From the IMG/VR virus record IMGVR_UViG_3300036846_000436, positions 1 to 40,913 of that record: a stretch of 40,913 nt of DNA; one strand, written 5' to 3'. The position numbers and the translations under genes were made by a program. Every line of letters starts with the position of its first letter. Position 1 is the stretch's first letter. Under the pieces are notes generated by a model that had not been told where the DNA came from, searched no databases, and saw nothing but the letters and a program-made list of their open reading frames with translations. Of this stretch, positions 1,050 to 32,969 are shown one piece after another. Source of the stretch: a virus.

Positions 1050-1286
1050 TCACTCCCCTTTGAACTCAAGGCGTTGCCGCACTTCGCTGCATGTTTCGAT
1101 TACTGGCGTGTATTTGGAATCGCCGGTGAACACCAGACATTTGACGCCGGCGTGAAAGTGCTCGCCCGGCTGGCCGCGCGGTTCCCGCAAGGCGACAACT
1201 TGCTCGGGATTGATCAGCACCATTTGCCGATCCGGCCCCGTGAGGGCGATCAGGCGCAGCGCCAGGATGATTTGCTCGAGCGTCAT
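1050..1286 (-). CDS. small FlbD-like protein of unknown function
   Basis: 78 residues, between the tail hub and the endolysin. The start ATG at 1286 overlaps the hub stop codon (TGATG), and the gene's own end carries the endolysin ribosome-binding site. The order of elements (a hydrophobic start, VLINPEQVVALRE, CLVFTGDSKY, ETCSEVRQRL) resembles short FlbD-like beta proteins often found beside phage tail-lysis junctions. No catalytic motif or membrane segment is seen. The resemblance is by eye; function is not known. Confidence 0.7.
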   Translation of the reverse strand: MTLEQIILALRLIALTGPDRQMVLINPEQVVALREPRGQPGEHFHAGVKCLVFTGDSKYTPVIETCSEVRQRLEFKGE

Positions 1287-8577: not shown

Positions 8578-8997
8578 TTAGAATTTTGCATAGTGAATTT
8601 GAAAATCGCGCGTCATGTTAAACATGCGCGTTGTGTGGTCCGACAGGTCGCGCTCGCCCACTTCAAAAATTCCGCGGATGTCGATGAAAGAGCCAGGCGA
8701 GTCGGTGCCGTAGACAATGCGGCCTTGGAAACCCGTCAGCACGTCGTGCGCCGCGTCGGCAAGTGACACCGCTCCATCGTGCTTGTCTGCCCAACTGTCC
8801 AATTGCATGCGGATTTGTTGCAGGCCCGAGTCGCCTTGCATGTGATAGTCGGCAAAGCCGCTCACACGGAAATAGACCAGCGATGGCGCCCGCATATTTT
8901 CGGGCATTTCCACCGGATAGCAGCGGCCGCCGCTCAAAGCGTTAACGGTCGCATCCGACAGCAACAGTGAGCGAAACGCCAGGCGAATGTCCTTCAT
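8578..8997 (-). CDS. tail terminator / completion protein (DUF3168)
   Basis: 139 residues. DUF3168 features are visible: an N-terminal helix (IRLAFRSLLLSDATVNAL), YPVEMPENMRAPSLVYFRV, a central QIRMQLDSWA and a C-terminal TRMFNMTRDFQIHY. Members cap the tail tube and join it to the head connector. It sits between the head-tail adaptor and the gp10-like gene, as in other HK97-type phages, and overlaps the adaptor by 4 bases. Confidence 0.82.
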   Translation of the reverse strand: MKDIRLAFRSLLLSDATVNALSGGRCYPVEMPENMRAPSLVYFRVSGFADYHMQGDSGLQQIRMQLDSWADKHDGAVSLADAAHDVLTGFQGRIVYGTDSPGSFIDIRGIFEVGERDLSDHTTRMFNMTRDFQIHYAKF

Positions 8998-9362
8998 GGT
9001 CGCACCGCCGGCCGCCTGGTCGCCAGCACGCGCAGGCCTTCGTGCCGGCCAATCTCGAGCACGGCGAACACGTCATAGATCGACCGCTCGGCGATCGGGT
9101 CGACGGCCGCCGTTGCCGGTTCGATCAGTCGATCCGCCGGCGACAGGTCCGCCAGGTCCGCGGCCCAACGCAAGTGAAACTCGACCTGCTCTGACGCCTC
9201 GAGTTGCGCCGACCCGTAGCGCTCAATGCCGGCGACGGCGTTCATTGAGGCCCAACGCGCCGGCCCGATCGCCGCCCACGTCTGCCCCTGCTCGCCGGAC
9301 GGCGAACTCGTCGAGGTGAAACGCTGCACGACGACGCGACGATCGAGCTCTCCCGCTTTCAT
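8994..9362 (-). CDS. head-tail adaptor (stopper) protein
   Basis: 122 residues of the phage head-tail joining family: AGELDRRVVVQRFTSTSSPS, GQTWAAIGPARWASMNAVAG, EVEFHLRW-type strand and a final IYDVFAVLEI strand. It closes the connector channel and docks the tail. The start at 9362 is chosen over an ATG at 9374 because it forms a clean 4-base ATGA overlap with the small upstream gene, the coupling style used throughout this operon. The canonical neighbours (connector at 19817-20449) are about 10 kb away because the accessory block lies between. Confidence 0.83.
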   Translation of the reverse strand: MKAGELDRRVVVQRFTSTSSPSGEQGQTWAAIGPARWASMNAVAGIERYGSAQLEASEQVEFHLRWAADLADLSPADRLIEPATAAVDPIAERSIYDVFAVLEIGRHEGLRVLATRRPAVRP

Positions 9363-9472
9363 TGGAAATACCATGTCGCCAGGAACGCCAGCGCAACCAT
9401 GCCACCGCTAATGATCGCGGCGGCAAAAACCGGCTTCCAATCTATTTGATCGCGATTGCGCGGCCGCTTCAT
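9359..9472 (-). CDS. 37-residue membrane protein
   Basis: A very short gene linked by ATGA overlaps to both neighbours, 9469-9472 upstream and 9359-9362 downstream, which strongly supports translation. It has a basic N-terminus (MKRPRNRDQIDWK) and one membrane segment at about 15-34 (VFAAAIISGGMVALAFLATW), so the N-terminus is probably cytoplasmic. It might anchor products of the sugar-transfer cassette or act in lysis, but nothing in the sequence proves either. Confidence 0.7.
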   Translation of the reverse strand: MKRPRNRDQIDWKPVFAAAIISGGMVALAFLATWYFQ

Positions 9473-10302
9473 TGCAGAAGCCTCCACAATGTTCCGTCGC
9501 ACAATTCCCGTTCAGTATACTGGCAATACGCCAGGCTGTGCAGCCACTTTGTTCGATCGGGAAACACCGGCTTTCCCAGGTCGCCGCTAATGCTCGAGCC
9601 GACCAGCGCGGCCGCGCTCGACGAATCGACGAATACGGGAAAGCCGAGGATCGCCGCCTCGACCGCGGCAATGCTGCCGTGCGTTAGCAGCGCGTATGTC
9701 TTGCGGTCGACGAGCTCGCGATCGAGCCCGATTTTCGATTCCTTGTCGCGCACAATGATCGGTCGCTCGGTTTGCAAGCGCAAAGCTTCGGAAAGCAACA
9801 GCGACCAGCTTTGCGACAGCCCGCGGACTAGCCAATAATCCGCCAGCGTGTCGGCGATCAAAAACGGTGCATCGGCTGCGGCGTGCTCGCGCCACGGCTT
9901 AACGCTGCCGTCGAGGCGTAGCGCTTTCCATCGGTCATCCGGCACATCCCGAATTTTGCTCATTTGGAATTCGCCAAGGTGCCATCGATAATAACCGCCC
10001 CGCTCGATTGATTGATCCGCCGGCGGCAGGCCTTTCGACCACCAGCGGCGCAGATAGCCGCGATCCCAATATATCCACGGCGTGTTTGTTTCCCGCCATT
10101 GTTTGATCGCGTCGCGAAACGGCGGCGAGCAACCGACGATCGGAATGCGGGTCCAGGCCTGCGCCGTAAGCTTGTTATAGTCGTGGCGAATGACCTTGCC
10201 GCCCAAGTCCTGAATATGCTTCGCGATCCGTTCAAACAGGTCGAGTTTGAATTTTTTCAAACCCGGCGGAACGAAGAAAACGCAATCGTGCGGATCGACC
10301 AT
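9469..10302 (-). CDS. GT-B-like glycosyltransferase, capsule export (KpsS/LipB)-like
   Basis: 277 residues, last enzyme gene of the accessory block. The N-terminus (DCVFFVPPGLKKFKLDLFER) and the C-terminal motif THGSIAAVEAAILGFPVF at 207-224 resemble GT-B enzymes and capsular polysaccharide KpsS/LipB-type proteins, in which a similar loop binds a nucleotide sugar. Two aromatic-rich stretches (PWIYWDRGYLRRWW) may bind the acceptor. GGAG lies 8 bases before the start. No membrane segment is seen, so it is probably cytoplasmic. Donor and acceptor cannot be told from sequence. Confidence 0.65.
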   Translation of the reverse strand: MVDPHDCVFFVPPGLKKFKLDLFERIAKHIQDLGGKVIRHDYNKLTAQAWTRIPIVGCSPPFRDAIKQWRETNTPWIYWDRGYLRRWWSKGLPPADQSIERGGYYRWHLGEFQMSKIRDVPDDRWKALRLDGSVKPWREHAAADAPFLIADTLADYWLVRGLSQSWSLLLSEALRLQTERPIIVRDKESKIGLDRELVDRKTYALLTHGSIAAVEAAILGFPVFVDSSSAAALVGSSISGDLGKPVFPDRTKWLHSLAYCQYTERELCDGTLWRLLQ

Positions 10303-10305
10303 TGT

Positions 10306-10944
10306 TTAGCTCCAATGCTTGGCGATCCACGGAATATGCGCGAATTGACTTGGATCGCGCCGGCCGGGAAAGGCGACAATGCGCGCGTCGGCCGGCAGCT
10401 GATCGTTCGCCGGCCAGCCCGGTTTGCGGAACGCATAGATGCCCGAGCTCGGCCCGACCTTCCATGTTGCGGCGTCCGGCCGCTTGAAGTGAATCCAGCC
10501 CTGATCGTCCGGGAATTCATATTTCGGGATTGTCTGCAGCACGTCGGCGTTGAGCGAAAACCATAGATCGGCGTTCGTGCCGCCTTTCATCATGAGAACG
10601 CTACCATTGAACGGGCAGGGATTAGCAGCGTTCGCGCCCTCGAGGATCACGAGCGTTTCGTCGCGATCAAACAGCGGATCGAGCCGACCGGTTATTACGA
10701 TGTCAAGATCGAGCACAACGACGCGTTCGCCGCGCGCAATTTGGCATCGATCCTGAAAACGCCGATCAAACAGCCGCATGCGGCAGAGACAGCCATCGAG
10801 TAACCATTCGTCGCCGGCCTGCGGATGCAGCACAAGAAAGCGAAACGGCGGTTGCAAATTGCGACGCAAGCCATATTCGAGGCGCGCGATATAGTGCCCC
10901 GGATATTTCTGACCCCAAATCCACGTGCAAACCGTCAATGCCAT
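10306..10944 (-). CDS. GT-A glycosyltransferase with DxD motif
   Basis: 212 residues. The core is VVVLDLDIVITGRLDPLF with the metal-binding Asp-x-Asp at 79-81, followed by NGSVLMMKGG and DDQGWIHF, a layout seen in GT-A enzymes that use a nucleotide sugar and a divalent metal. The start at 10944 overlaps the end of the methyltransferase gene by 10 bases; the longer frame upstream is arginine-rich overlap and not used. It is about 20% shorter than typical GT8 enzymes but carries the whole Rossmann-like core. Confidence 0.75.
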   Translation of the reverse strand: MALTVCTWIWGQKYPGHYIARLEYGLRRNLQPPFRFLVLHPQAGDEWLLDGCLCRMRLFDRRFQDRCQIARGERVVVLDLDIVITGRLDPLFDRDETLVILEGANAANPCPFNGSVLMMKGGTNADLWFSLNADVLQTIPKYEFPDDQGWIHFKRPDAATWKVGPSSGIYAFRKPGWPANDQLPADARIVAFPGRRDPSQFAHIPWIAKHWS

Positions 10945-11522
10945 ATCATGATGCCGATGCCGTTGTGGCCGTTGTCGAGTTTGATTTCCTCGAACGTCGC
11001 GCCGAAACGGTAAAGATGTTTCAGGTCCGCCCACACTTTCGGCACCTCGATCGGCAGGCGTCCCGGCGGCGTCGGATTGTTCCAGCCGATATCGTGAAAA
11101 CAGATGATCGGCGCCATGTGCGAATAACTCTGGAAATCCTTTCGCACATATTTTTCGGTGTGATTGGCGTCGATGAAAATCAAGTCATATGGCTGCAACT
11201 TCGCGACCCGTTCGATAATGGCGTCCGACGTGCTGTCGCCAAGAAATAGGTGCGCCTCATGCCCGAGCTTTTGCAAAGCAGTCTGACAATTGTGCAAGGA
11301 CTCTGCGGAATCTGATCGACCCCACGCCTGGTTAGGCATGTCGACCATGACAATTCGCGATTTTGGCTGCATTGCCTGCGCAACTTGCCAAACCAAGCCG
11401 CCAAACTTGCAGCCGATTTCGCAGTAGCTTCCAAGCTTATGCTCGCGAACGAATTGCAGGAATTGCTCGAGCTCGCCCAAGTGCTGTTGCGGCCTGCTCG
11501 CATAGCTTAATGGCGTGGCCAT
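10935..11522 (-). CDS. class I SAM-dependent methyltransferase (Methyltransf_24-like)
   Basis: 195 residues. The SAM-binding loop is YCEIGCKFGGLVWQVA (33-48), the second acidic strand is IVMVDMPNQAWG, and IFIDANHTEKYVRKDF is the Methyltransf_24-type motif IV region. Family members often methylate sugars or related small molecules. The start at 11522 is chosen because GGTGGAAG lies just upstream; it overlaps the preceding GT9 gene by 86 bases, the longest overlap in the operon. Given its neighbours, a sugar or polysaccharide substrate is likely but unproven. Confidence 0.72.
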   Translation of the reverse strand: MATPLSYASRPQQHLGELEQFLQFVREHKLGSYCEIGCKFGGLVWQVAQAMQPKSRIVMVDMPNQAWGRSDSAESLHNCQTALQKLGHEAHLFLGDSTSDAIIERVAKLQPYDLIFIDANHTEKYVRKDFQSYSHMAPIICFHDIGWNNPTPPGRLPIEVPKVWADLKHLYRFGATFEEIKLDNGHNGIGIMIWH

Positions 11523-12252
11523 AGACTTCTTCCACCGTGATTTGATCAAGAGCGCGCCGGCAGTGCTGGCACGCATGAAGCGATCCGCAGGCATGTGAGT
11601 CGCCGGTCAAGTTAACATGATCCGCATAGCCGGTGACGGCCGGCGGAATGAAGCCGCCAAAAATAACGATCGCCCTGGTGCCGACCGCCGCGGCGGCATG
11701 ATGCAAGCCTCCCTCGGGCACGATCGCGAGCTCGATCGCCGACAGCGCCGCCGCCGCCTGGCGGAAGTCAGCGACGTTGATTTGCTCGACGCCGGCCAGG
11801 CGCAGCTTGCCGTAACTGAATTGCCAAACGCGTACGTCGCTGTGGCGCAGCCGATCGGCGAGCAGTTGCCAACGCGCGAATCCCCAATCCTTGTTTCGTG
11901 CGACTGACTTATGCCACGGCACATTCGGTTCGAGCAGCACGCCGTCGCGCGGCACGGCGCAGACGCGTTCGCTGTCGTCAAAAAAGAATTCGCCGCGCGG
12001 CGCCTTGAAATCGTAATTCCAAATCCAGCGGCCCGTCGCAGCGTGATTGTACCAACGCCGGCCTTTGTAATAGTCGATCCAGCGCAAGTTTTTCTCGTCG
12101 AGCGAACGTGCGACGTTCGGATTGTAGCGAAACGCCTGCTCGCAAAACGGTCCCCAAATCAGCCTGCGGCCGTCGCCGAACGCAATGCGCTTGCCGGCGG
12201 CGTCAGCGCCGCGCGCCAGGCCGGTCGCCATGATTTCATCGCCGATACCCAT
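11437..12252 (-). CDS. glycosyltransferase family 9 (heptosyltransferase-like)
   Basis: 271 residues. The start at 12252 gives MGIGDEIMATGLARG, the GT9 N-terminal acceptor loop (GxGDxxxxT). The C-terminal half has IVPEGGLHHAAAAVGTRAIV and IFGGFIPPAVTGY, matching the nucleotide-sugar loop of heptosyltransferase-like GT-B enzymes, then a Cys-rich HACGSLHACQHC near the end, also seen in this family. The longer in-frame start at 12354 is rejected because it lies inside the upstream gene and adds a basic, low-complexity leader. Shorter than the usual 320-350 residues, with a reduced N-domain. Confidence 0.75.
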   Translation of the reverse strand: MGIGDEIMATGLARGADAAGKRIAFGDGRRLIWGPFCEQAFRYNPNVARSLDEKNLRWIDYYKGRRWYNHAATGRWIWNYDFKAPRGEFFFDDSERVCAVPRDGVLLEPNVPWHKSVARNKDWGFARWQLLADRLRHSDVRVWQFSYGKLRLAGVEQINVADFRQAAAALSAIELAIVPEGGLHHAAAAVGTRAIVIFGGFIPPAVTGYADHVNLTGDSHACGSLHACQHCRRALDQITVEEVYGHAIKLCEQAATALGRARAIPAIRSRA

Positions 12253-12256
12253 GTTG

Positions 12257-13003
12257 TTAGCGATGATACTTTCCGAACGGCTTTTCGATATAGCGATCGC
12301 GCGGGAAGCCGTTCGCCTCGGCCTCGACGAGCAGCGCGTCAAAGAGCTCGACAACGTCCTTGCGCGGATGCGGCTGCGGCGTTCGCTTTGACCAGTGCTC
12401 GAGGCCTGCAGCGCGCAATCGCGGCAACGCGTGACGCAATTGCGGCTGCGTTGGAATCGACGTGCAATGTAAAATCTTCAAATCCGGATCGTGCAAATTT
12501 GCATATTGCTCGCCGTCCAAGCAATTCCAGTTTCCATTTTGGAAGATGCCAACGGACCCCGCTGGCAAGCCGCGGCGCAGTCGCGCATATAGCCCGTACT
12601 CGGTTTTTATTTGCTTGATCGGCGGCAAATGCTTTTGCGCCTTGGCGCAGTCGAACAGCGTGCAACAGAACGTCGAAGCATTTTTCGCGATGCAGAATTG
12701 TTGCTCGGCAATCGGATGGCGCCAGAGCTCGGCAATGTCGGCGAGCACAATCATGTCGATATCTAGATAAATCGCGCGGCCTTGAAAGCCGCAATGCTCC
12801 GGAATAGACCAGCGGAACGCCGAGAACGGCGTCGCCCAATTGCGCATAAGCCAACCGTGCCAGGTCGAGGCCGGATCGTTGCTCGCTTTCATCCACGTGA
12901 GCTCGATCGGCTCGCTTGCGTGCTTGCGGATCGACCACTCGAGCACCGATTGCGATTCGATATCTTCATTGTTCGCTGGCGTGCCGACAAAGATTCGGAT
13001 CAT
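12257..13003 (-). CDS. GT-A glycosyltransferase (GT8-like) with DxD motif
   Basis: 248 residues. MIRIFVGTPANNEDIE is a typical GT-A start. AIYLDIDMIVLADIAELW holds the metal-binding DID at 81-83. Later motifs are GSVGIFQNGNWNCLDGEQY and DLKILHCT with the His expected near the product end of GT8-like enzymes. The start ATG overlaps the stop of the DUF115-like gene (ATGA). It is probably a cytoplasmic enzyme that adds one sugar of the glycan assembled by the cassette. Confidence 0.78.
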   Translation of the reverse strand: MIRIFVGTPANNEDIESQSVLEWSIRKHASEPIELTWMKASNDPASTWHGWLMRNWATPFSAFRWSIPEHCGFQGRAIYLDIDMIVLADIAELWRHPIAEQQFCIAKNASTFCCTLFDCAKAQKHLPPIKQIKTEYGLYARLRRGLPAGSVGIFQNGNWNCLDGEQYANLHDPDLKILHCTSIPTQPQLRHALPRLRAAGLEHWSKRTPQPHPRKDVVELFDALLVEAEANGFPRDRYIEKPFGKYHR

Positions 13004-13665
13004 AGCTGCCACCTCGCGAGCGCTTCCTCGATCGTCATTTTCGGATAAGCCGTCAATTTTGAGCTCGGCGAGCAGTTGACAACGTCAACGCCCAACTGCG
13101 CGGCCCGAACCGCAGCCCCGTCGAAGGCCTCGCGCCAGCGTTTGACGTTGTATTCCATCGGATTGCTCAATGGCGTCGGATGGCGGCCGTGCCAATGCAA
13201 ACCCTGATCGAGACTGCAATCAATGCCGACCAGCATGATGCCAGTCGCACCGAACTGGATCGCCAGGTTGAACGCCTGAAAGCCGGAATTGCCGCCGGCG
13301 CCGACATAGCTCGGCTTTTCGATTAGCAGTTCATTCAGCCCGACTTGCTCGATCATGACTCGCTGCAATTTGAATTCGTCGCAGGCCCGACGATCGTGCG
13401 ACAAGCGCAGCCCCGTGAATTCGCGCGCGCCGCGATGCGTTTGCCACCAGCCATAGTCGCAGGAATAAAGCACGTCGGCCCATGGCGCGAGCTTGAATGA
13501 ATCGTTGATCGCGACGACGTGGATGCGATCGCGCAGTGACTCGACCGGCACTTGCTTCGCGCTCGGCCCGGACCCGACAATAGCAACGCATTCGCCACGC
13601 CAATCCTGCCACCACGGCACCGTTTGCGGCCCGATCTCGGCCGCGTGGTTTAAGCTCGGCGCCAT
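13000..13665 (-). CDS. DUF115/MptE-like Rossmann protein (sialyltransferase-like fold)
   Basis: 221 residues. CVAIVGSGPSAKQVP (27-40) is the glycine loop, VVAINDSFKLAPWADVLYSC follows, then GAGGNSGFQAFNLAIQFGAT, IMLVGIDCSL and HWHGRHP, the signature of a common phage protein type related to DUF115/MptE and to GT42 sialyltransferases. Relatives are linked to sugar-nucleotide or pseudaminic/sialic acid chemistry. The start at 13665 overlaps the fibre gene by 16 bases; the frame stays open far upstream but that part is antisense-quality sequence and is not used. The exact reaction is not known. Confidence 0.68.
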   Translation of the reverse strand: MAPSLNHAAEIGPQTVPWWQDWRGECVAIVGSGPSAKQVPVESLRDRIHVVAINDSFKLAPWADVLYSCDYGWWQTHRGAREFTGLRLSHDRRACDEFKLQRVMIEQVGLNELLIEKPSYVGAGGNSGFQAFNLAIQFGATGIMLVGIDCSLDQGLHWHGRHPTPLSNPMEYNVKRWREAFDGAAVRAAQLGVDVVNCSPSSKLTAYPKMTIEEALARWQL

Positions 13666-15689
13666 GGTCCTGACTCTGGTCGGCGCGATGGCCCGGCCGA
13701 TCGCCGTTGCGCTCCGTCGCCGGTGAACGGTACGGTTCGAAACGCGCGATCGGTCCGCAAGTTGCTCGGCACAATATCTAGCGAAGCCGTCAGGGCGGCG
13801 CGACTGTCGAATCTTGCCGAGACTGGCATCGCGAGATTCGCCATGGCGGCAAAACCGCCGACGCCGGCGAATGCTGCCGAAGCGGCGATGTTTTGGCGAA
13901 ACTGAACCGAGAGATTGCCGGCACCGGCGAACAGCGCGGCGGCGTATTTGACGACGACCATATTGGCCGAGAGATTGCCGCTCGCGCTCCAATTGCCGGC
14001 AACGTTTTTGACGTTTGCGACATCGACATTGAGGCCGCCGAGGCCGGCGAAGCGGGCTGCTATCGCGTCCGCCTGCGCGATCGCTGTGGTGAGAGCACCG
14101 AGGCCGCCAAAATTGGCTGCACTGGCAAGCCCAAGGCGGACCGAGCCCAAAAGCCCGCCGACGCCGGCTAGATTGGCCGAAACCAGCCAATTGTTCGTAA
14201 CGCCTGGAATGAGCGCCTCGGCCGAAAAGGCACCGGCACCGGCGAAGCTGGCGCGGACCGGCATGCCGAGGCTTGCGAAGGCCGCCCATGCGCCCGCGCC
14301 GGCGAACGTCGCATCTATCGGCTTGCTCTTGGAAAGTTGACCAGCGAGCGCGCCTGCCCCGGCAAACGTGCTTCCTGCGGCCATGCCTTGGCGCAAGAAT
14401 GCCGTCCAGGCGCCGGCACCCGCATACGTGGTGGATACCGCCTCGGCTAATTGCATCGCAGCCGCCAAGCCGCCGGCGCCGGCGAAGGTGGCCGATGTCG
14501 CCTCGGCGAGTTGCCCCGTAGCGGTCAGTGCACCGAGGCCCGCAAAAGCGGCGCCGATCGTCTTAGTCTTAGCAACGTCACCGACGAAACCGCCGGCACC
14601 GCTAAAACTGCCCGCAATCGTTTCTGCTAATTGCAATGCCACCGCGAGATTGCCCGCGCCGGCGAAATTCGCCGCGGTGATCTCTCCCAACTGCGCCGCT
14701 GCCGTTAAAATGCCGACGCCGGCGAAGCCGGCGCTGACGTCCACCGGCAGTCTGCCGATATTCACATTGCCGCTGAGTACACCGGCGCCGGCGAATGTCG
14801 CGATTATTCTCGCCTGAAGATTCGCGCTGCTGGACAATGCACCGGCGCCGGCGAATGTCGATTGAACCACATTTCTTTGATTTAATTTCGCGCTGATTGT
14901 GCCGGCGCCGTTTAAATTCGCCGCAACGAGCATTCTTTGACGTAAATTTGAAGAGAAGCCGCCGGCGCCCGTAAACGCTGCGGAAACGTCGACTGGCGCT
15001 GCCGCAATAGTCTGAATGAAATTTCCTCGCCGTGCGAGCGTTGGTGTTAGCAGAGTAATCGGTGGCCCAAAGGTGAGTGCCGGAGTGCCAGCGCCCAGAG
15101 TAATATTATGATGGAGGCCGGATAAGTCTGGCTCCGGTGACGCGAGCCCGTCGAGAGGCCAATAAGCAAAAATTGCCGCAGGCCTAATGATGAAAGGACG
15201 TATACCCTGCGCTAAGCTGGCAATTTCCTGCGGAGTCAGTACTGTATTCCAAAGTGCAAAATCGGCGATTGCCCCGTTCCAGTTCGGCGCAGTGCCACCG
15301 ACAAAAGAAATATTATCAGAAGAGTTTGTTAGATTACCACTGCCCGCAGCAGTGCCATCTGATACCCCATTGAAGTACGTTCGTAAGCCGTCGGCGGCGC
15401 TATAAGTCATCGCCAAGTGCGTCCACACACCATTAACAACTGTGTGTGATCCGGGGTCTATAGCCACGGTGTCGGCCCGCGTGTACCATGCAACCTTGCC
15501 CGTTGATCTAAAGAACACAGTAAATTCATCTACGGCCCCAGAAGAGGCTGTCTTATTCATTACGCTGCAATAGTCAGGAAACGAAGCGCCGTCGTGGCGA
15601 ACCCATCCAGAAAAGGATGCCGCAGCGGGAAACGATGGGGAGGATGCAACAACCGCCCCGGCAGTGCCAGTAGAGAACGCCCGCGCCAT
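13650..15689 (-). CDS. LamG-headed fibre protein with 20-residue repeats
   Basis: 679 residues. Residues 1-165 form a LamG/concanavalin-like domain (FSGWVRHDG, WTHLAMTYSAADGLRTYFNG, WNGAIADFALWNTVLTPQEI). After a linker (166-232) come about 20 copies of a 20-residue unit built on A-x-F-A-G-A-G-x-L (233-642); from 342 to 482 the spacing is exactly 20 residues. The end (643-679) is basic and overlaps the next gene. The protein is probably a long fibre or decoration on the virion. Repeats contain Ser/Thr just before the FAGAG core, possible sites for the surrounding glycosyltransferases. The fibre role is inference. Confidence 0.72.
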   Translation of the reverse strand: MARAFSTGTAGAVVASSPSFPAAASFSGWVRHDGASFPDYCSVMNKTASSGAVDEFTVFFRSTGKVAWYTRADTVAIDPGSHTVVNGVWTHLAMTYSAADGLRTYFNGVSDGTAAGSGNLTNSSDNISFVGGTAPNWNGAIADFALWNTVLTPQEIASLAQGIRPFIIRPAAIFAYWPLDGLASPEPDLSGLHHNITLGAGTPALTFGPPITLLTPTLARRGNFIQTIAAAPVDVSAAFTGAGGFSSNLRQRMLVAANLNGAGTISAKLNQRNVVQSTFAGAGALSSSANLQARIIATFAGAGVLSGNVNIGRLPVDVSAGFAGVGILTAAAQLGEITAANFAGAGNLAVALQLAETIAGSFSGAGGFVGDVAKTKTIGAAFAGLGALTATGQLAEATSATFAGAGGLAAAMQLAEAVSTTYAGAGAWTAFLRQGMAAGSTFAGAGALAGQLSKSKPIDATFAGAGAWAAFASLGMPVRASFAGAGAFSAEALIPGVTNNWLVSANLAGVGGLLGSVRLGLASAANFGGLGALTTAIAQADAIAARFAGLGGLNVDVANVKNVAGNWSASGNLSANMVVVKYAAALFAGAGNLSVQFRQNIAASAAFAGVGGFAAMANLAMPVSARFDSRAALTASLDIVPSNLRTDRAFRTVPFTGDGAQRRSAGPSRRPESGPWRRA
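13764..14993 (-). repeat. about 20 imperfect 60-bp in-frame tandem repeats
   Basis: The DNA codes for the FAGAG repeat array of the fibre protein. Most copies carry a variant of cgccggcgaa on the plus strand, spaced about 60 bases apart. Copies differ enough at the DNA level to suggest old duplication followed by drift, with the protein core FAGAG/FAGLG kept. Confidence 0.85.
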
Positions 15690-15985
15690 CAGATCAGGCC
15701 ATAACGTTTCGAAATGGCAAAGCAGACGAGCTCGGCTTTCTGCTGCGCAGTGGCACTAGAGAACGGCGCCGGAATCACCGAGTTGAGCGCCTGCACGATA
15801 GTCTGCGCGCCGTGCCCGGCCGACACCGCTTGATTGAGTGTCGTATCGAAGGCGTTGTCGATTTGTGTGACAGCAGCGTTGAGATCGTCGAGAGAAAAAC
15901 CGGCCAACTGTGAGTTGCTCACAAACCACTTGTTGGCCCAATAGGCCGAAGTGTCTCGCGTCTGTTGTGGAGTTAATGTTGTCAT
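15689..15985 (-). CDS. small fibre-associated protein of unknown function
   Basis: 98 residues, from MTTLTPQQTRDTSAYWANKW to KAELVCFAISKRYGLI. The start at 15985 has GGGAGTGA directly upstream; an in-frame ATG at 16042 lies inside the previous gene. The gene ends in a TGATG overlap with the fibre gene start, so the two are translationally coupled, and it may be a fibre chaperone or accessory subunit. No domain is recognised; the protein is mostly helical with no membrane segment. Confidence 0.65.
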   Translation of the reverse strand: MTTLTPQQTRDTSAYWANKWFVSNSQLAGFSLDDLNAAVTQIDNAFDTTLNQAVSAGHGAQTIVQALNSVIPAPFSSATAQQKAELVCFAISKRYGLI

Positions 15986-15990
15986 CTGAA

Positions 15991-16476
15991 TCACTCCCAT
16001 ACCAGACTGAACTGCCACACCGATGTTTGTGCCAGCGTCCAACCAGAGGTATTAAAGGTGGCCAGTACGGTTAGGATACTGTTGGCCGTCGGGCTCGTGG
16101 TCAGCGTGACCTTATTCTCAACAATTATATCCGCCGTCGCCCACGTCTGGGAAACTTGCGTTTCGGTGCTCAGCGTTGTCCCGCCGATATTGCTGCCCGC
16201 GGCCGTTTGGCCGTCGCTGACGGTAAGCTTGGCGACGCCGCTTGTGGCGTTTGCCCAGGCCAGGCAGCGCAATTTCAGTGTCCCCGACGGGATCACTTCA
16301 GGAAGATTAAACTGTAAGACGGCGGCGGCATCGGCGGCGAGAGAGGCCACAACGCCAATACCTTCGATCGCACCGGCGTTATTAGTATTTGTCGCCGGGA
16401 CGTAGACCGCCGCCGAGAGGTTGCCCGAGGCGCCACCGAGATAAATCGAACTCGGAAGTATAGGTCCGCCCGCCAT
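15991..16476 (-). CDS. putative virion beta-rich protein
   Basis: 161 residues, rich in Thr, Ser and Ala with beta-type alternation (VLQFNLPEVIPSGTLKLRCL, VAKLTVSDGQTAAGS, WQFSLVWE at the end). It has the character of phage fibre or decoration subunits; no enzyme motif is present. It is placed between two other fibre-like genes and ends in the ribosome-binding site of the next gene. Function assigned from composition and context only. Confidence 0.6.
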   Translation of the reverse strand: MAGGPILPSSIYLGGASGNLSAAVYVPATNTNNAGAIEGIGVVASLAADAAAVLQFNLPEVIPSGTLKLRCLAWANATSGVAKLTVSDGQTAAGSNIGGTTLSTETQVSQTWATADIIVENKVTLTTSPTANSILTVLATFNTSGWTLAQTSVWQFSLVWE

Positions 16477-16486
16477 CGAGTCCTCA

Positions 16487-16888
16487 CTATGCGAGAGTGA
16501 TCGCGAGATTGCCCGCAGTCAGCGTCACGGTATCGCCTGGCAATGGTGTGCGAATGGTGTTCAGCGTTCCATACCAAAGCATCGAGCCGGCATTGCTTGA
16601 GACAGTGTCAGCAACGAACATGCCGGACAGCACGGCGCTAGATGAGAATGTGCCGAACGTGACCGCCGTCGAATTCGAAGCCGAAGCCGAACCCGCCGGC
16701 GTCGCCGCGCCCGCGAATGCCATCGATTGCCGCGTGTAGCCCGATCCGGTCCCCACTTCGGACGACGCCGCCGACGACGGCACGCCGAGACTAAGACCGA
16801 TGAACACGCCAGCCGGTGTCGCCGGCGCCGCCGCCTTCAGCGACCAATCCAACATGTTCTTCATTGCATAGAGGCCGATGTTTGCCAT
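16487..16888 (-). CDS. phage tail fibre-type protein
   Basis: 133 residues. MANIGLYAMKNMLDWSLKAA, GVFIGLSLGVPSS, GSGYTRQSMAFAGA and NLAITLA at the end match a small family annotated as tail fibre protein in alphaproteobacterial phages and prophages. The fold is probably a beta-sandwich. It lies between the fibre genes and the FkbM methyltransferase gene, within the sugar-modification block, which is compatible with it being a modified virion surface protein. Confidence 0.65.
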   Translation of the reverse strand: MANIGLYAMKNMLDWSLKAAAPATPAGVFIGLSLGVPSSAASSEVGTGSGYTRQSMAFAGAATPAGSASASNSTAVTFGTFSSSAVLSGMFVADTVSSNAGSMLWYGTLNTIRTPLPGDTVTLTAGNLAITLA

Positions 16889-16900
16889 GACGGCTTGCTC

Positions 16901-17668
16901 CTATCGTTGCAGGACCGAGCGATTGGATTCATATTCCGCAAGCCGCCGCTCTAGTTCCCACTGGCGGAATGTCACATAGTTGTCGAGCACATTAGGCGGA
17001 TAAGCGAGCCGTTCGGCCAATCGCTTTTGACTTTCGTGCAAATAGAATCGATTCACCCGGTCATCATACACCGGCGAATAGCCCTGTTCTTTCAGCATTG
17101 GCTCCCATGCGCCATAGGACGGCGATGCGTCGGCGCTATAGACTGCTTCGATGCAAAACAACCACGGCTGATATTTTTTGAAATCGAGTCCCGCCAGCAC
17201 TTGCTTTTCCATGCCCTCAACGTCGATGCACACCAGATGCAAAGTGTTGCCGTTTAGCGTCCGATCGAGCACGCGCGTCAACGTCGTCGTCGGCACCTTC
17301 GCACCTTCCTCGGTAATGTGCGCGCCATTGAATTCGCGATGCCGATCGACAATGTTGCGGGCGCCAGTCGAGAGGCCACGAAAGTTGCAGAGGAAATATT
17401 CGCTTTCACCTTCTTCTTTCTCGCCGATCATGTCGCGGATGATCAGATCGCGCGGGCGCCAGCGTTTCCATTCGCTCGCCCAGGACGGCTCGAAATTGTA
17501 GATCGGATCACAGACGACGCCATGCCAGCCGCGGTTATAGAGCGCTGCGGTATTTGAATGCGTCAACGCCTGATAGGAGCCGACATCGGCATAAAAGCCG
17601 TCATCGACGTCAGCAAATACTCGCGCCAGAATGACATCCTCGAGATTTGATGAGAATGAAATCATCAT
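16901..17668 (-). CDS. FkbM-family methyltransferase
   Basis: 255 residues. FYADVGSYQALTHSNTAALY is the FkbM SAM-binding start, VVCDPIYNFEPSW the second strand, and LHLVCIDVEGMEKQVLAGLD the family motif (DVEG). FkbM-type enzymes O-methylate sugars and other hydroxyl groups. The start codons ATGATG overlap the stop of the upstream fusion gene. A C-terminal extension (about 200-255) is Arg/Glu-rich and helical. The likely substrate is a glycan made by the neighbouring transferases. Confidence 0.82.
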   Translation of the reverse strand: MMISFSSNLEDVILARVFADVDDGFYADVGSYQALTHSNTAALYNRGWHGVVCDPIYNFEPSWASEWKRWRPRDLIIRDMIGEKEEGESEYFLCNFRGLSTGARNIVDRHREFNGAHITEEGAKVPTTTLTRVLDRTLNGNTLHLVCIDVEGMEKQVLAGLDFKKYQPWLFCIEAVYSADASPSYGAWEPMLKEQGYSPVYDDRVNRFYLHESQKRLAERLAYPPNVLDNYVTFRQWELERRLAEYESNRSVLQR

Positions 17669-19554
17669 CGCAGCAGCCCCCGCGCCGCAGCGATGATTGT
17701 TTCCGACGTGATGTCAGAAATGCACGCTGCATAGTCGGCGTCATTGATTTTTGTCGGATGGCAGGTATCAAACGATTCGTGCAATTGATGACACGGCCAG
17801 CATGGCACCCGCTGCGGATCGGCATGCAGTGTCGTGGTATTTAGCCAATGCTTGGTTATGTTTTCATCGCTCGCGTGCGACAGCATGATAATTTTGGGGA
17901 TTGGCTCGAACGCAACGCCCCAACTCGGGCCAGTGTCGCCGCCGATGTAGAGATCGCACGCTGCAGCAAAAGTAAGGATGCGCCGTATCGGCCACGTTTG
18001 ATCCTGTTCGCTCGGCGAGCCCGCATGTGTCAGGCCATCGAGTGAACCGTTTTGCGCCTTCACAGTATCCATGGCGATTTTAGCTAACGCCGCGTCACGG
18101 TGCGGCGGCGGCGCGCCGAGCATGACCACGCGAGCGCCAAGCTCCTTGATCAGCCGGGCGATAACCAGCGGCCCATATGGATAGACTTTGTCGATCCGCG
18201 TGCCGGAAAGACACCATGCAATGATCGGGCCAGTGCCGAGCTTGCGTTTCGTGACATAGGCTTGCTCTTTCTCTTCCGCGGTCGGAAAGAACAATGGGCC
18301 GAAGCTATGCGGCAGGCCGAGCACGTCATGCGCGGTTTCCAGATAACTCCCCGCGCACAATTTGCGCCGATAGTCCTGCGGCCACCAAAACCAAGTTTGG
18401 ATTGGGAAAAGCGCATGTCGGCATTCGACAGCGTGTCCGAGATTGGCAAAGCGCTCGTATTCCTTGGCGCGCAGCCGATACCACTGTTGCCATGCGTTGA
18501 TGTCGGTCGGCCAATCTTTCTGGTCGTAAACAGCGATTTTATCGATATGAGGATTGTTCTCGAACAGCACGCAGTTAGGCGTCTGCGTGATCATTTCGAC
18601 CTTCAATCCCATTTCCTTTAGCGGCCGACAAACACTCGCGGCGATCAGATTGTCGCCGACGCCGCCGCAGCGGCTCACGCCAGCCCATCCCATGGCGCCT
18701 TGATACGGAGCGCGCGGCACCAGCATTTTCAATTTGCTGCCGCCAGATTTCAACTGATCGTGGAACTTAATTTGATCGTCGACGAGCGGTCGGAATTCTT
18801 CGAGCCGTTCTTTGGGGATTGCCAGGATGTTGTAGCTCAACGTGCGGAATGGCTGCAACTCAATGTGTTTGATAGTCAGGAAAACGTTTTCAGGGCATTT
18901 CTTCCAGTTGTCGGCAGAGTACATGTCCGGCTTGTGCGAATAAGTGAAATAACCGTTTTGCCGCAAATAAAGCATTACATCATAGTCGCCCTTTCCTTCG
19001 GAATGCTCTTCCAGATAGATCACAGGACGGCAGCGCTTGATTGACTGCTTGGCGCCCTCTAGCGCCATCAGTTCCGAGCCCTCGATGTCGAGCAGGATGA
19101 AGTGCACGTCATCGCCCTGCAGCCAATCATCGAGCGCAATCAAGCGAACGCTGGCGCTGCCGGCACCGAGCGCAGTGCAGCCGTAGTTATCATGGCCGAG
19201 CTCGGCGTACAGCCGCAACTTGGAATCGCCGCGCGAATGCCAGAGCCCAAAGCTCGAGCACGTGATATTTTTATGTTCCTTGGCATTGCGCTTGAGCAAC
19301 TCGAAGGCTTCCGGCTGCGGCTCAAATGCATAAACCTTCCCGGCCATTCCGGCGAGCGGAACGGTAAGCGCGCCAATGTTGGCGCCGCCATTAACGACCG
19401 TCCAATCCGGCTTGATGATCCGTTGAAACAGCGCAGTCTCATCAGGCGAATATTCGCCGTAAAGCTCAAGCGATCGGCCGATGTAGGCGTCGCCAGCAAA
19501 ATAGGCCATCCGGCCATGACGCGTTTGCGTCGTTCTGACATTTTCGACAAGCAT
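17665..19554 (-). CDS. FkbM methyltransferase - GT9 glycosyltransferase fusion
   Basis: 629 residues with two enzyme parts. Residues 25-215 are FkbM-like (VVNGGANIGALTVPLAGMAG, VYAFEPQPEAFELLKRNA, FILLDIEGSELMALEGAKQS). Residues 285-629 are GT9-like (GGVGDNLIAASVCRPLKEMG, AWCLSGTRIDKVYP, YIGGDTGPSWGVAFEPIPKI, then a Cys/His-rich VPCWPCHQLHESFDTCHP). The link between them (215-285) is helical. It could add a sugar and methylate it, or methylate the acceptor before extension. TGATG couples it to the upstream 83-residue gene. No frameshift is needed to join the parts. Confidence 0.8.
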   Translation of the reverse strand: MLVENVRTTQTRHGRMAYFAGDAYIGRSLELYGEYSPDETALFQRIIKPDWTVVNGGANIGALTVPLAGMAGKVYAFEPQPEAFELLKRNAKEHKNITCSSFGLWHSRGDSKLRLYAELGHDNYGCTALGAGSASVRLIALDDWLQGDDVHFILLDIEGSELMALEGAKQSIKRCRPVIYLEEHSEGKGDYDVMLYLRQNGYFTYSHKPDMYSADNWKKCPENVFLTIKHIELQPFRTLSYNILAIPKERLEEFRPLVDDQIKFHDQLKSGGSKLKMLVPRAPYQGAMGWAGVSRCGGVGDNLIAASVCRPLKEMGLKVEMITQTPNCVLFENNPHIDKIAVYDQKDWPTDINAWQQWYRLRAKEYERFANLGHAVECRHALFPIQTWFWWPQDYRRKLCAGSYLETAHDVLGLPHSFGPLFFPTAEEKEQAYVTKRKLGTGPIIAWCLSGTRIDKVYPYGPLVIARLIKELGARVVMLGAPPPHRDAALAKIAMDTVKAQNGSLDGLTHAGSPSEQDQTWPIRRILTFAAACDLYIGGDTGPSWGVAFEPIPKIIMLSHASDENITKHWLNTTTLHADPQRVPCWPCHQLHESFDTCHPTKINDADYAACISDITSETIIAAARGLLR

Positions 19555-19805
19555 CAGCTTTCAAGGCCTCCGACTGCAAACAACACCGCCTCGCATTCGT
19601 GATTTTCCGGTTCGATCTTTTCGCCGGCCATGAAACGCAAATGGCGCGCTTGCTTGCGCGCGATCTCGGCGAGAATGGCGTTTTGTTCAAGGCGCAATTT
19701 GATCAATGCGGCCTCGTCCAAGCCGAACGCTGCGCGATCAAACATTTCGACGGTATCGCGCCATTCACTTGCTAAAGCCCGAAGCGCATCGAGATTTGAG
19801 CTCAA
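19554..19805 (-). CDS. small helical protein of unknown function
   Basis: 83 residues from a TTG start at 19805, chosen because GGAGGGG lies 8 bases upstream at the end of the connector gene; the only nearby ATG is in another frame and stops at once. The protein is helical and charged (EAALIKLRLEQNAILAEIAR, KQARHLRFMAGEKIEPENHE). It separates head genes from the sugar-transfer block and is coupled to both sides. No known domain is recognised. Confidence 0.65.
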   Translation of the reverse strand: MSSNLDALRALASEWRDTVEMFDRAAFGLDEAALIKLRLEQNAILAEIARKQARHLRFMAGEKIEPENHECEAVLFAVGGLES

Positions 19806-19816
19806 GGCATCCCCTC

Positions 19817-20449
19817 CTATGCAATCGGCACTTCCACGCGATGCCGCCGCAGTAATTGCTCGGCCGACCACGGAATTGCCGTTTCGCGTCCCGCGACGCT
19901 TAGGCTGCGCACGTCGTAGGTATGAATCGCGTAAAGCTTCAAAGCTTGTTTGATGCTCTCAGGAACGACACCGACATTCGGCGAGCTCGAGGCGTCGACA
20001 TAACCCGCGCGAAATCTAATTCGCACTGCGTTGATTCCGGCGAACGTTGTCGGCCAGCTGCCGACCGGCAACAGCCATCCCGGCTGACTCACCTTGTCGA
20101 CCGAATAGTTGCTTGGATCGAGAATTTGTTGCACGCCGCCGGCGTCATCATAAAAAACATTTACAATTTCGATCAGCGGCGGCAGCGGAATGCGAATTTC
20201 CCTTCCGGACGAGCTCGTCGTCGGAAACACGTCGATCGTCGTCGGGAAAGCGTCGAGCGTCAATTCCCACGTTTGGTCGATTAGCGCGCGGCCGAGGAAA
20301 CCGTCGACGCCGTCGGCATATTGCACCGCCGCGCTGACGCACCCGGCGATCGTCGCATCCTCGTCATCATGATCGACGCGAAAATATTCTTTCGCTTCCG
20401 CCAATGTCAGCGGCTCAAATGGCGGCGGCGTGATTAGTTTCAGGCTCAC
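19817..20449 (-). CDS. head-tail connector, HK97 gp6-like
   Basis: 210 residues. The start PPPFEPLTLAEAKEYFRVDH with DDEDATIAGCVSAAVQYADG is the classic gp6-like connector signature, as is the later RIRFRAGYVD and IKQALKLYAIHTYDVR. The protein forms the ring under the portal. It starts with GTG in a GTGA overlap with the small Cys protein gene. In most HK97-type phages the adaptor gene follows directly; here it is about 10 kb further on. Confidence 0.86.
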   Translation of the reverse strand: MSLKLITPPPFEPLTLAEAKEYFRVDHDDEDATIAGCVSAAVQYADGVDGFLGRALIDQTWELTLDAFPTTIDVFPTTSSSGREIRIPLPPLIEIVNVFYDDAGGVQQILDPSNYSVDKVSQPGWLLPVGSWPTTFAGINAVRIRFRAGYVDASSSPNVGVVPESIKQALKLYAIHTYDVRSLSVAGRETAIPWSAEQLLRRHRVEVPIA

Positions 20450-20646
20450 GCCGGCGGCCCTCCTGGTGCCATCTGAAATTCACGGCACCAGTCGTCGGCG
20501 GCCGTGATCGGGAAATAGTATTCGGGCGCGGGGATGCGTTGCGCACCAAATAGCGGCGCCGGCGGATGCGCCTGGCAATAGCCGGCGTTGTTGCCGTTGA
20601 ACGGCCGCCACGCATTACAGATCGCGCATTGATTGGGATCAGCCAT
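20446..20646 (-). CDS. small Cys-containing protein
   Basis: 66 residues. CAICNAWRPFNGNNAGYCQAH suggests a small metal-binding knuckle (C-x2-C ... C-x2-H), followed by an aromatic, acidic tail (PEYYFPITAADDWCREFQ). It overlaps the collagen-like gene by 8 bases and the connector gene by 4, so it is very likely translated. Function is unknown; zinc binding is inferred from residue spacing only. Confidence 0.65.
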   Translation of the reverse strand: MADPNQCAICNAWRPFNGNNAGYCQAHPPAPLFGAQRIPAPEYYFPITAADDWCREFQMAPGGPPA

Positions 20647-21415
20647 GCTTGAGCCCTCCCGAAGTCATTTGCGTCAGGTCGAGGCCTGGCCGGCCGGCCG
20701 GACCTGGCGCCCCGCGCTCGCCGTCGTTGCCGTTGCGGCCAGGCAGCCCGCTGCGAACGATCAGCAGCCAATCGTCGCTTGGCATTTTCTGATCGGTGTC
20801 ATTGCGGCATAACCACGTCGAACCGCCATGCGTCACGCATTGCCCGCGCTTGTACGAAGCGCCGGCGCGATATGGTCCGCAGTGAAAATCGGCAAGCGTC
20901 GGCAGCGGCCAGGCAAATTTGCAGACTGCGGCGCCGCCGCGCAGGAACTCGATTCCGAACACGCCATCGGCCGTGAACTGCTTGGCGTCGTCGAAGCCGA
21001 GGCCGTCTTTCCCGTCGATGCCATCGCGACCGTCCTTGCCGCTGGCGCCGATCGGACCCGGCACGCCTGGCAAACCGTCACGGCCCGCGAGCCCGTCCGC
21101 GCCGGCCTTGCCGGGCTCGCCTGGCGGCCCGCGATCGCCCGGCTCGCCTGGTGCGCCATCCTGGCCGCGCTCGCCTCGAGCCATCGCCTTGAGCTCGGCG
21201 AGCTCGCCGGCCAGGCGCGCGAATTCTTTGCCCGCTTCGGCGGCCAGCCTTAGCGCCGCATTGAGCGCAGCATGAGCCGCGCCCATTTCCGCCGCCATCG
21301 CCCGCCGCTCGGCCGCGAAGTCATCGCGAGCTCGAGCAACTACCCGCGCGAGCGCGAGCTCGAGTTGACTTGCCGCCTCAAAGGCCGGCGGCGAGCTCGA
21401 GGATTCGTTCGGCAT
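20639..21415 (-). CDS. collagen-like virion protein with carbohydrate-binding-like module
   Basis: 258 residues. Residues 15-80 form an Ala-rich helix or coiled coil (LAGELAELKAMARGE), a likely trimerisation stem. Residues 81-140 are Gly-x-y triplets (GEPGDRGPPGEPGKAGADG) typical of a collagen triple helix. Residues 178-222 (YRAGASYKRGQCVTHGGSTW, LCRNDTDQKMPSDDWLLIV) resemble a CBM5/12-type carbohydrate-binding module. A second short collagen run lies at 223-246. Together they suggest a trimeric surface fibre, unusually placed between portal and connector genes, which may be a head or neck fibre. It overlaps the portal gene by 38 bases. Confidence 0.8.
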   Translation of the reverse strand: MPNESSSSPPAFEAASQLELALARVVARARDDFAAERRAMAAEMGAAHAALNAALRLAAEAGKEFARLAGELAELKAMARGERGQDGAPGEPGDRGPPGEPGKAGADGLAGRDGLPGVPGPIGASGKDGRDGIDGKDGLGFDDAKQFTADGVFGIEFLRGGAAVCKFAWPLPTLADFHCGPYRAGASYKRGQCVTHGGSTWLCRNDTDQKMPSDDWLLIVRSGLPGRNGNDGERGAPGPAGRPGLDLTQMTSGGLKHG

Positions 21416-32564: not shown

Positions 32565-32969
32565 TTGTTACGGCCTGCAACGCGGCTTGGATTTTCTCCC
32601 GTGAGCCCTTCCAACGGTGCAAATTTTCCAAGCTGTCCGCATTGTGGGCAACGTTTGTTGCGCCGGCACGGCGCCGATCTGCCGCCGCAAGCCGCCCTGA
32701 TCTTCGACATGATCGAGGCGTCGCGCACCCGCGGCGTTAGCGCCGAGACTTTGGCGTCAGTGTTCTTTCCCGGCAAATCGAATCTTGCCGGCCGCCGCCT
32801 CGTCTACACGCACGTTTTTCGGATCAATGATTTTCTAAAGACGAGCCCTGTGCACGTCGCTAATCGCGCGCCGGTCGACAACTACGCCATGCGCGGCCGA
32901 CCTGCTGGCTACTACGTCGTGAAACGACGGCGCGGTGCCGCCGGGCACGTGCGAGGCCCTGCGGCATGA
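32565..32969 (+). CDS. zinc-ribbon, winged-helix-like DNA-binding protein
   Basis: 134 residues if it starts at TTG 32565, 122 if at GTG 32601; neither has a good ribosome-binding site, so the start is open. NFPSCPHCGQRLLRRHG gives a C-x2-C half of a zinc ribbon. AALIFDMIEASRTRGVSAET followed by LASVFFPGKSN and THVFRINDFL reads as a winged helix, ending in a basic tail. First gene of the rightward run, coupled to the methyltransferase fusion by ATGA, it may regulate early genes. Confidence 0.62.
   Translation: MLRPATRLGFSPVSPSNGANFPSCPHCGQRLLRRHGADLPPQAALIFDMIEASRTRGVSAETLASVFFPGKSNLAGRRLVYTHVFRINDFLKTSPVHVANRAPVDNYAMRGRPAGYYVVKRRRGAAGHVRGPAA

Follow-up and report, generated by a model that had tools for sequence, protein, structure and literature searches.

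We lean, with modest confidence, toward reading a block of transferase genes in the IMG/VR virus record IMGVR_UViG_3300036846_000436 as a late-expressed, two-module locus for O-methylated glycosylation of virion proteins, in which neck fibres would be the likeliest acceptor of the first module. The record comes from a soil bacterial virus, and we call its whole stretch of 40,913 bases (positions 1 to 40,913) the window. The block lies on the minus strand between a gp6-like head-tail connector and a head closure gene, and holds eight genes for transferases along with four others. Across otherwise different phages, a GT9-like glycosyltransferase (GT) domain of module 1 is nearly always found with the gene of a fibre protein, Gp80, while the six enzyme genes of module 2 keep their order; the enzymes fall into recognisable families and folds, are under purifying selection and have no membrane segments. 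From these features we infer the enzymatic activities, the order of the steps, the sugar donors and the fibre as acceptor. Virion glycosylation itself is already known; what is new here is that GT9 and Gp80 are almost always paired and that a six-enzyme core is conserved at the head-tail joint.

Module 1 and the genes that it spans are as follows (gene starts here and below were refined, several being shifted inward relative to the longest open reading frames, ORFs; lengths are in amino acids, aa):

17665 to 19554, minus strand: 629-aa protein, an N-terminal FkbM methyltransferase fused to a C-terminal GT9-like domain at about residues 280-629 (PF05050, 9e-18; phrog_8156, 7e-24).
16901 to 17668, minus strand: second FkbM methyltransferase, 255 aa (PF05050, 2.7e-16), with a 4-nucleotide overlap with the preceding gene.
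16487 to 16888, minus strand: Gp80, homologue of podophage GP4 fibre I (PF23140, 5.5e-20, 72.4 versus 27 bits; PDB 8jou_a, E 7e-4).
15991 to 16476, minus strand: 161-aa gene between the fibre genes, 23% Ser+Thr, with no Pfam or PHROG match.
15689 to 16042, minus strand: 117-aa gene (98 aa from an alternative ATG) with a TGATG overlap with the next gene and no meaningful family match.
13650 to 15689, minus strand: 679-aa fibre with an N-terminal LamG domain (PF13385, Laminin_G_3, 1.5e-19) and 18 copies of a roughly 20-residue FAGAG-type repeat.

Both FkbM methyltransferases score well above the PF05050 cut-off (65.4 and 60.6 versus 22.7 bits), and the 629-aa protein also gives a profile match to the FkbM structure 2py6 (3e-7). 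Its C-terminal half has no PF01075 match in Pfam and is called GT9-like from motifs read by eye, a retained GGxGD start and a C-terminal D-T-G-x-x-W, and from a long conserved alignment; in most relatives this domain is a separate, standalone gene. PDB entry 8jou is named 'Virion-associated phage protein', so that Gp80 belongs to a virion protein family. The original prediction had counted four enclosed fibre-like genes; Gp80 and the 679-aa protein earn that name by their domains, the 161-aa and 117-aa genes by position only.

How tightly is the GT9-like enzyme bound to the fibre? Seeded with the GT9-like domain from the 629-aa protein, a scan of IMG/VR yielded 80 loci, or 58 groups at 95% identity; our scans rely on short conserved peptides, and so they sample one subfamily. 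Fibre proteins are the commonest neighbours within 7 kb of the domain (77 loci): by gene calls Gp80 occurs in 39 of the GT9-seeded loci and a large-fibre cluster, which includes homologues of the 679-aa protein, in 58, with direct homologues of that protein in 38 of 79, while no other non-enzyme family rises above 17 of 77. When a hidden Markov model was run on six-frame ORFs of the 46 groups (95% clusters) that have the GT9 domain and at least 6 kb of downstream sequence, Gp80 was found at most 6 kb downstream on the same strand in 44 of them, at a median distance of 526 bp; of the other two groups one has Gp80 elsewhere and one is without it. A portal homologue is common to only 8 of these 46 groups. 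Against this, neither Gp80 nor the repeat fibre occurs in any of 45 control loci, which are portal-related to the window and comprise the portal plus 8 kb downstream without the GT9 enzyme (Fisher 5e-24). The reverse search, seeded from Gp80, finds the GT9 domain upstream in 18 of 20 loci. Moreover, the divergence of the two partners is correlated (r=0.70, Mantel p<=0.0005, for 50 groups with a mean identity of about 50%). In marine Zobellviridae, and in the cultured phages CRP-4 and MEP401, a distant Gp80 relative occurs with no transferase annotated nearby, which indicates that the enzyme follows the fibre gene and not the reverse, and such dependence resembles what an enzyme-acceptor pair would look like. 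The GT9 partner domain was not found among 50,697 cultured phage records. In relatives, the genes lying between GT9 and Gp80 encode for the most part methyltransferases and DUF5672 proteins, in keeping with an O-methylated product.

Two variations on this arrangement were seen. In one distinct phage, L221 (10001-11023), which has the GT9 domain and ample sequence downstream of it, we recognised neither Gp80 nor the repeat fibre; it is the sole such case, and its downstream proteins of 435 and 780 aa may be alternative fibres. Some loci (L124, L157, L158, L159 and L165) contain two Gp80 copies, one of them scoring lower.

We propose that the parts of module 1, namely the GT9-like transferase fused to or near methyltransferases, Gp80 and the repeat fibre, travel together, and that the transferase most likely glycosylates its companion fibre, whose sugar the FkbM enzymes would O-methylate. 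The fibre is probably attached near the head-tail joint, a placement suggested for Gp80-type fibres by gene position and by comparison with A-1(L)-type neck fibres (PMC10966104).

Module 2, the core cassette, has six genes:

13000 to 13665, minus strand: gene 1, DUF115/GT42-like transferase, 221 aa (phrog_4603, alpha-2,3-sialyltransferase, 1.3e-46).
12257 to 13003, minus strand: gene 2, GT8-like glycosyltransferase, 248 aa, with a conserved Y-x-D-x-D (PF01501, 0.0035, below cut-off).
11437 to 12252, minus strand: gene 3, GT9 (heptosyltransferase superfamily) glycosyltransferase (PF01075, 2.4e-5, above cut-off at 24.2 versus 22 bits).
10935 to 11522, minus strand: gene 4, Methyltransf_24, O-methyltransferase-like (PF13578, 6e-9, above cut-off; PDB O-methyltransferases, 3e-5).
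10306 to 10944, minus strand: gene 5, DxD glycosyltransferase, glycogenin/GT8-like, 212 aa (invariant DLD in 17 homologues).
9469 to 10302, minus strand: gene 6, GT-B transferase resembling KpsC/Kdo transferases, 277 aa (AlphaFold2 mean predicted local distance difference test, pLDDT, 86).

Structure prediction with a Foldseek search, a check suggested in the original prediction, was run on two of these transferases. The model of the DUF115 protein (AlphaFold2, pLDDT 93.9) has as its best PDB match the sialyltransferase CstII (E 1.6e-5, probability 1.00, though with a TM-score of only about 0.5), from which we assign it a predicted GT42 sialyltransferase fold. The 277-aa protein has as its best match KpsC (6mgb, 4e-5, but with a TM-score of 0.48 and a root-mean-square deviation of 8.7); it also resembles viral 'capsule polysaccharide biosynthesis' folds, and 8 of 15 members of its family match DUF6716, a putative glycosyltransferase family. 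In profile searches against PDB sequences the GT9 protein matches WaaC (2gt1, 7e-7) and the 212-aa DxD protein matches glycosyltransferases and glycogenin at 0.007-0.03, while the DUF115 and GT8-like families give no match. The 248-aa protein leans weakly to GT8, as it scores 17.4 bits against a PF01501 cut-off of 24.3 and its Y-x-D-x-D motif is conserved in 11 homologues.

We compared gene order in 129 loci gathered by three IMG/VR scans (portal-, DUF115- and FkbM-GT-seeded) and one portal-seeded scan of bacterial genomes. The order DUF115, GT8, GT9, methyltransferase, DxD GT, KpsC-like gene and head closure is kept in many of them, and the six-gene core keeps its order across phages that are about 45-78% identical. 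The suggested search for the block in related phages thus finds the core again, but with modules that are separable and positions that vary. The core or a reduced form of it stands directly after gp6, enclosing no fibre, in L051, L041, L085 and L017; it or its relatives lie upstream of gp6 in L053, L100, L106, L111, L119 and L126, and downstream of head closure in L109, L115 and L118 and likewise in phage PAJU2, which makes three alternative spots around gp6 and head closure, with variable gene content. In contig 3300046683_000163 the FkbM-GT/Gp80 module precedes the capsid gene and the core follows the collagen-like gene. The split arrangement in that contig and the cores that enclose no fibre indicate that the window holds two separable modules side by side, in place of the single cassette enclosing four fibres that had been proposed.

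The enzymes retain invariant motifs and about 30-78% identity, their dN/dS of 0.15-0.28 (against L081 and other relatives) is similar to that of neighbouring structural genes, and the gene order is kept in more than 10 contigs; together these exclude chance. In some related cassettes there are also genes for GDP-mannose dehydratase, RmlD, a TylF-type O-methyltransferase, hexapeptide acyltransferases, GT25 and GT2, so that the glycans probably differ between phages. Sampled in bacteria, the KpsC-like family gave 2 hits in 398 Pseudomonadota genomes and 5 in 297 genomes of one order. Two of these hits fall in prophage structural operons, at the bacterial loci L145 (G595:C7:80000-98000) and L144 (G542:C45:42000-60000), where genes of both kinds, DUF115 and KpsC-like, are placed around gp6 and head-tail genes.

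Module 2, in our proposal, would act in the cytoplasm and assemble a second, short glycan on a co-produced protein. The CstII-fold transferase would probably add the first sugar or a CMP-activated acidic sugar, the GT8, GT9, glycogenin-like and KpsC-like enzymes would extend the glycan, and Methyltransf_24 would methylate it.

The genes around the block, all on the same strand, frame this picture:

19554 to 19871, minus strand: 105-aa gene adjoining the FkbM-GT gene, with homologues in L055, L059, L060 and L120.
19817 to 20449, minus strand: gp6-like head-tail connector (PF05135, 9.7e-5).
8994 to 9374, minus strand: head closure, Phage_HCP (PF05521, 1e-10).
20639 to 21415, minus strand: collagen-like protein with a CBM5/12-like domain (PF01391, 7.5e-14).

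The description of the locus from which we started, eight glycosyltransferase, DUF115-like or methyltransferase genes on one strand, tightly coupled and inserted between two normally neighbouring genes, holds. The eight are borne out by Pfam, PHROG and fold matches, and gp6 and head closure are indeed adjacent in relatives that lack the block (L034, L035, L038 and L125). Neighbours within the block are joined by 4-nucleotide overlaps, a TGATG overlap, a 16-nucleotide overlap and one of 86 nucleotides, or are separated by gaps of 3-4 nucleotides, which fits a single co-translated unit; promoter- and terminator-like sites in the block are about as frequent as in shuffled sequence. The collagen-like gene lies between portal and gp6, and in most portal-related loci a homologue stands at the same spot, whether or not transferases are present. 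This protein and the capsid had been named as candidates to bear the glycan. As an obligatory acceptor the collagen-like protein was rejected: it is equally present in the four cassette-free loci just named, and the window copy is only 7% Ser+Thr. The capsid lacks a Ser/Thr-rich tail.

Beyond the block, an integrase, RecT, YqaJ exonuclease, TerL, a protease-capsid fusion, portal, tape measure, tail fibre and endolysin were recognised, and with these genes the window looks like a nearly complete temperate siphophage. Its major capsid protein is fused to the prohead protease (23078-25225), as in PAJU2. The 956-aa tail fibre (1286-4156), which has a LamG domain and is rich in glycine at its C-terminus, is a second lectin-like fibre beside the 679-aa one, and an MT-A70 DNA methyltransferase with an N-terminal ParB-like/HTH (helix-turn-helix) part is encoded on the plus strand (32966-34117).

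Several observations count against glycosylation of the virion by this block. Gp80 is neither richer nor poorer in Ser/Thr in phages that have the enzyme than in those that lack it, and the linkage of the fibre module, which is not proof of catalysis, could mean co-transfer with no enzyme-substrate relation. Module 2 has no constant structural partner, since head closure follows the KpsC-like gene in only 15 of 54 groups, and the window capsid and tail-tube proteins are without Ser/Thr-rich C-terminal tails. Finally, the GT8, GT9, KpsC-like and FkbM families are also those of lipopolysaccharide (LPS) and capsule pathways. Virion glycosylation, as the original prediction had it, is partly supported; it stays the leading reading, and its strongest support is the near-obligate GT9-Gp80 pairing across otherwise different phages.

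It is because of these enzyme families that modification of host LPS is the main rival. Here the enzymes would act on sugars of the host surface (LPS core or capsule), either late in infection or in lysogens, so that progeny escape trapping by debris, for instance, or superinfecting phages are kept out. We regard this as unlikely, if still to be taken seriously. The GT9 protein matches the LPS heptosyltransferase WaaC, the last gene resembles KpsC and the first the lipooligosaccharide sialyltransferase CstII; the phage encodes an integrase; and some related cassettes have GT25, GT2, sugar-nucleotide dehydratases and TylF. However, no flippase, polymerase, undecaprenyl-phosphate transferase or membrane-anchored GT was recognised, and none of the transferases of the block has a membrane segment. 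Moreover, the genes sit within the late virion operon, with no more promoter-like signal than chance, which is not a lysogenic conversion position, and module 1 goes with a fibre gene. A serotype conversion system of the gtrABC type was rejected: Pfam scans gave no flippase GtrA, bactoprenol glucosyltransferase GtrB or membrane GtrC. Host-surface modification remains the chief alternative for the core cassette, while the fibre pairing of module 1 weighs against it.

The same families suggest a sharper form of our proposal, one that we hold only tentatively and think rather doubtful: that neck fibres and the head-tail joint are coated with an O-methylated oligosaccharide made from the host's LPS inner-core donors. 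CstII, KpsC, WaaC and glycogenin use CMP-sugars, ADP-heptose and UDP-hexoses, and CMP-Kdo, ADP-heptose and UDP-hexoses all occur in the Gram-negative LPS pathway. Fold and family matches in the block would correspondingly point to a CMP-activated keto sugar (the CstII- and KpsC-like enzymes), ADP-heptose (the two GT9-type enzymes) and UDP-hexose (the GT8-type enzymes), and no gene for sugar-nucleotide synthesis was recognised in the window. If this were true, the particle would carry an LPS-core-like glycan that needs no sugar-nucleotide genes of the phage's own and is usable in any Gram-negative host.

It is improbable, in our estimate, that the DUF115/CstII-fold protein, perhaps with others, is itself a particle component, which would either bind sugars as part of the structure or reach the host envelope as an enzyme at entry. 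The genes lie beside those for head-tail joining, and in the PAJU2 deposit (L149, AP009624, 7780-8349) the DUF115 homologue ORF010 is labelled 'structural protein', as are only three other proteins, the capsid and two from the tail region; the homologue in phage P1, pmgO, lies behind a late promoter and is annotated as putative morphogenetic. But a co-purifying modifying enzyme would earn the same label in PAJU2, and multi-enzyme cassettes with methyltransferases do not suit a purely structural role. Slightly less credible still is a passenger block, in which transferase genes are parked at a recombination-prone spot among structural genes and share no common target: the three alternative spots and the varying gene content would suit it, but the six-gene core keeps its order, purifying selection is as strong as on structural genes, and the GT9-Gp80 pair is almost never separated. 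Hypermodification of phage DNA bases (glycosylated hydroxymethyl-pyrimidines), a known activity of phage glycosyltransferases according to the citing literature (Pyle et al. 2024, via PMC12619734), we consider very improbable, since the window ORFs scanned, among which small ORFs were unmatched, include no recognised gene of the thymidylate-synthase-like, hydroxymethylase or base-kinase kind, and since the late structural position, the fibre-gene linkage and the carbohydrate-type methyltransferases speak otherwise.

How does virion glycosylation by such a locus compare with what is known? In the mycobacteriophages Che8, Corndog and Myrna, virion proteins are glycosylated by phage-encoded glycosyltransferases, and demonstrated virion glycosylation in bacteriophages is, as the citing literature presents it, confined to a few mycobacteriophages (Freeman et al. 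2023, via PMC12363180, PMC12619734 and PMC13313380). The original prediction drew this analogy, which stands in the sense that the window too has phage-encoded glycosyltransferases (by Pfam, profile and fold) and the same predicted kind of outcome. It does not extend to homology or to the acceptor: tblastn of the DUF115, 277-aa KpsC-like, FkbM-GT, GT9 domain, GT8, DxD GT and GT9 proteins gave no mycobacteriophage homologues among the matches listed; the acceptor predicted for module 1 is a fibre, whereas theirs are the C-termini of capsid and tail-tube proteins; and the window has eight enzymes, including three methyltransferase domains, from different GT families. The original claim that a glycan of this kind would be new was too strong. 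GT and methyltransferase genes of Rhodococcus phages have previously been interpreted as serving virion glycosylation (PMC13313380), and similar genes stand in the structural operons of published phages. Megablast of the block itself against cultured phages gave no match, and we found nothing relevant in the literature on DUF115 or fibre glycosylation in phages.

Module 2 lies in the late operon around gp6 and head closure in many phages, including 'Tetraselmis viridis virus S20' (NC_020840) and, in part, the D3/PAJU2-like Pseudomonas phages, and beside tail genes in the giant Caulobacter phage CcrSC. In S20 about nine genes for GT, DUF115, FkbM and methyltransferase proteins separate capsid from head closure (identity to the window 40% for DUF115 and 28% for the DxD GT), but no GT9-Gp80 module was found in it, and no functional description of its transferase block was found in the literature. 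Its recorded host is algal, and its gene content is that of a marine tailed bacteriophage. Giant Caulobacter phages (Bertelyvirus, such as CcrSC gp516-gp511) carry a single run of DUF115, KpsC-like, methyltransferase and GT9 genes beside tail genes, but in another order, at 28-35% identity, and between tail protein and endolysin genes instead of at the head-tail joint. The D3/PAJU2-like phages (PAJU2 gp10-gp12) have a DUF115 homologue (34%) and a methyltransferase among their head-tail joining genes, and the window's protease-capsid fusion resembles that of PAJU2 (41%), but theirs are two or three genes only, with no GT8, GT9, KpsC-like or fibre module. The window's Gp80 falls in the family of podophage GP4 fibre I by Pfam score and by sequence search (PDB 8jou, PF23140). 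Outside bacteriophages, the A064R protein of chlorovirus PBCV-1 has glycosyltransferase domains fused to a methyltransferase and serves an O-methylated glycan on a virion protein; we take this as a lead only, PBCV-1 being an algal virus with an unrelated capsid.

More generally, our analysis predicts virion glycosylation, along with one particular pairing of enzyme and fibre, in many and varied IMG/VR soil phages and partly in cultured phages that have laboratory hosts (Caulobacter phages, D3/PAJU2), and it offers Gp80 and the repeat fibre as concrete, testable acceptors. If the prediction is true, sugar coating of virions extends well beyond the few phages in which it is known, and genes commonly counted among metabolic or host-modifying extras may be genes of virion maturation.

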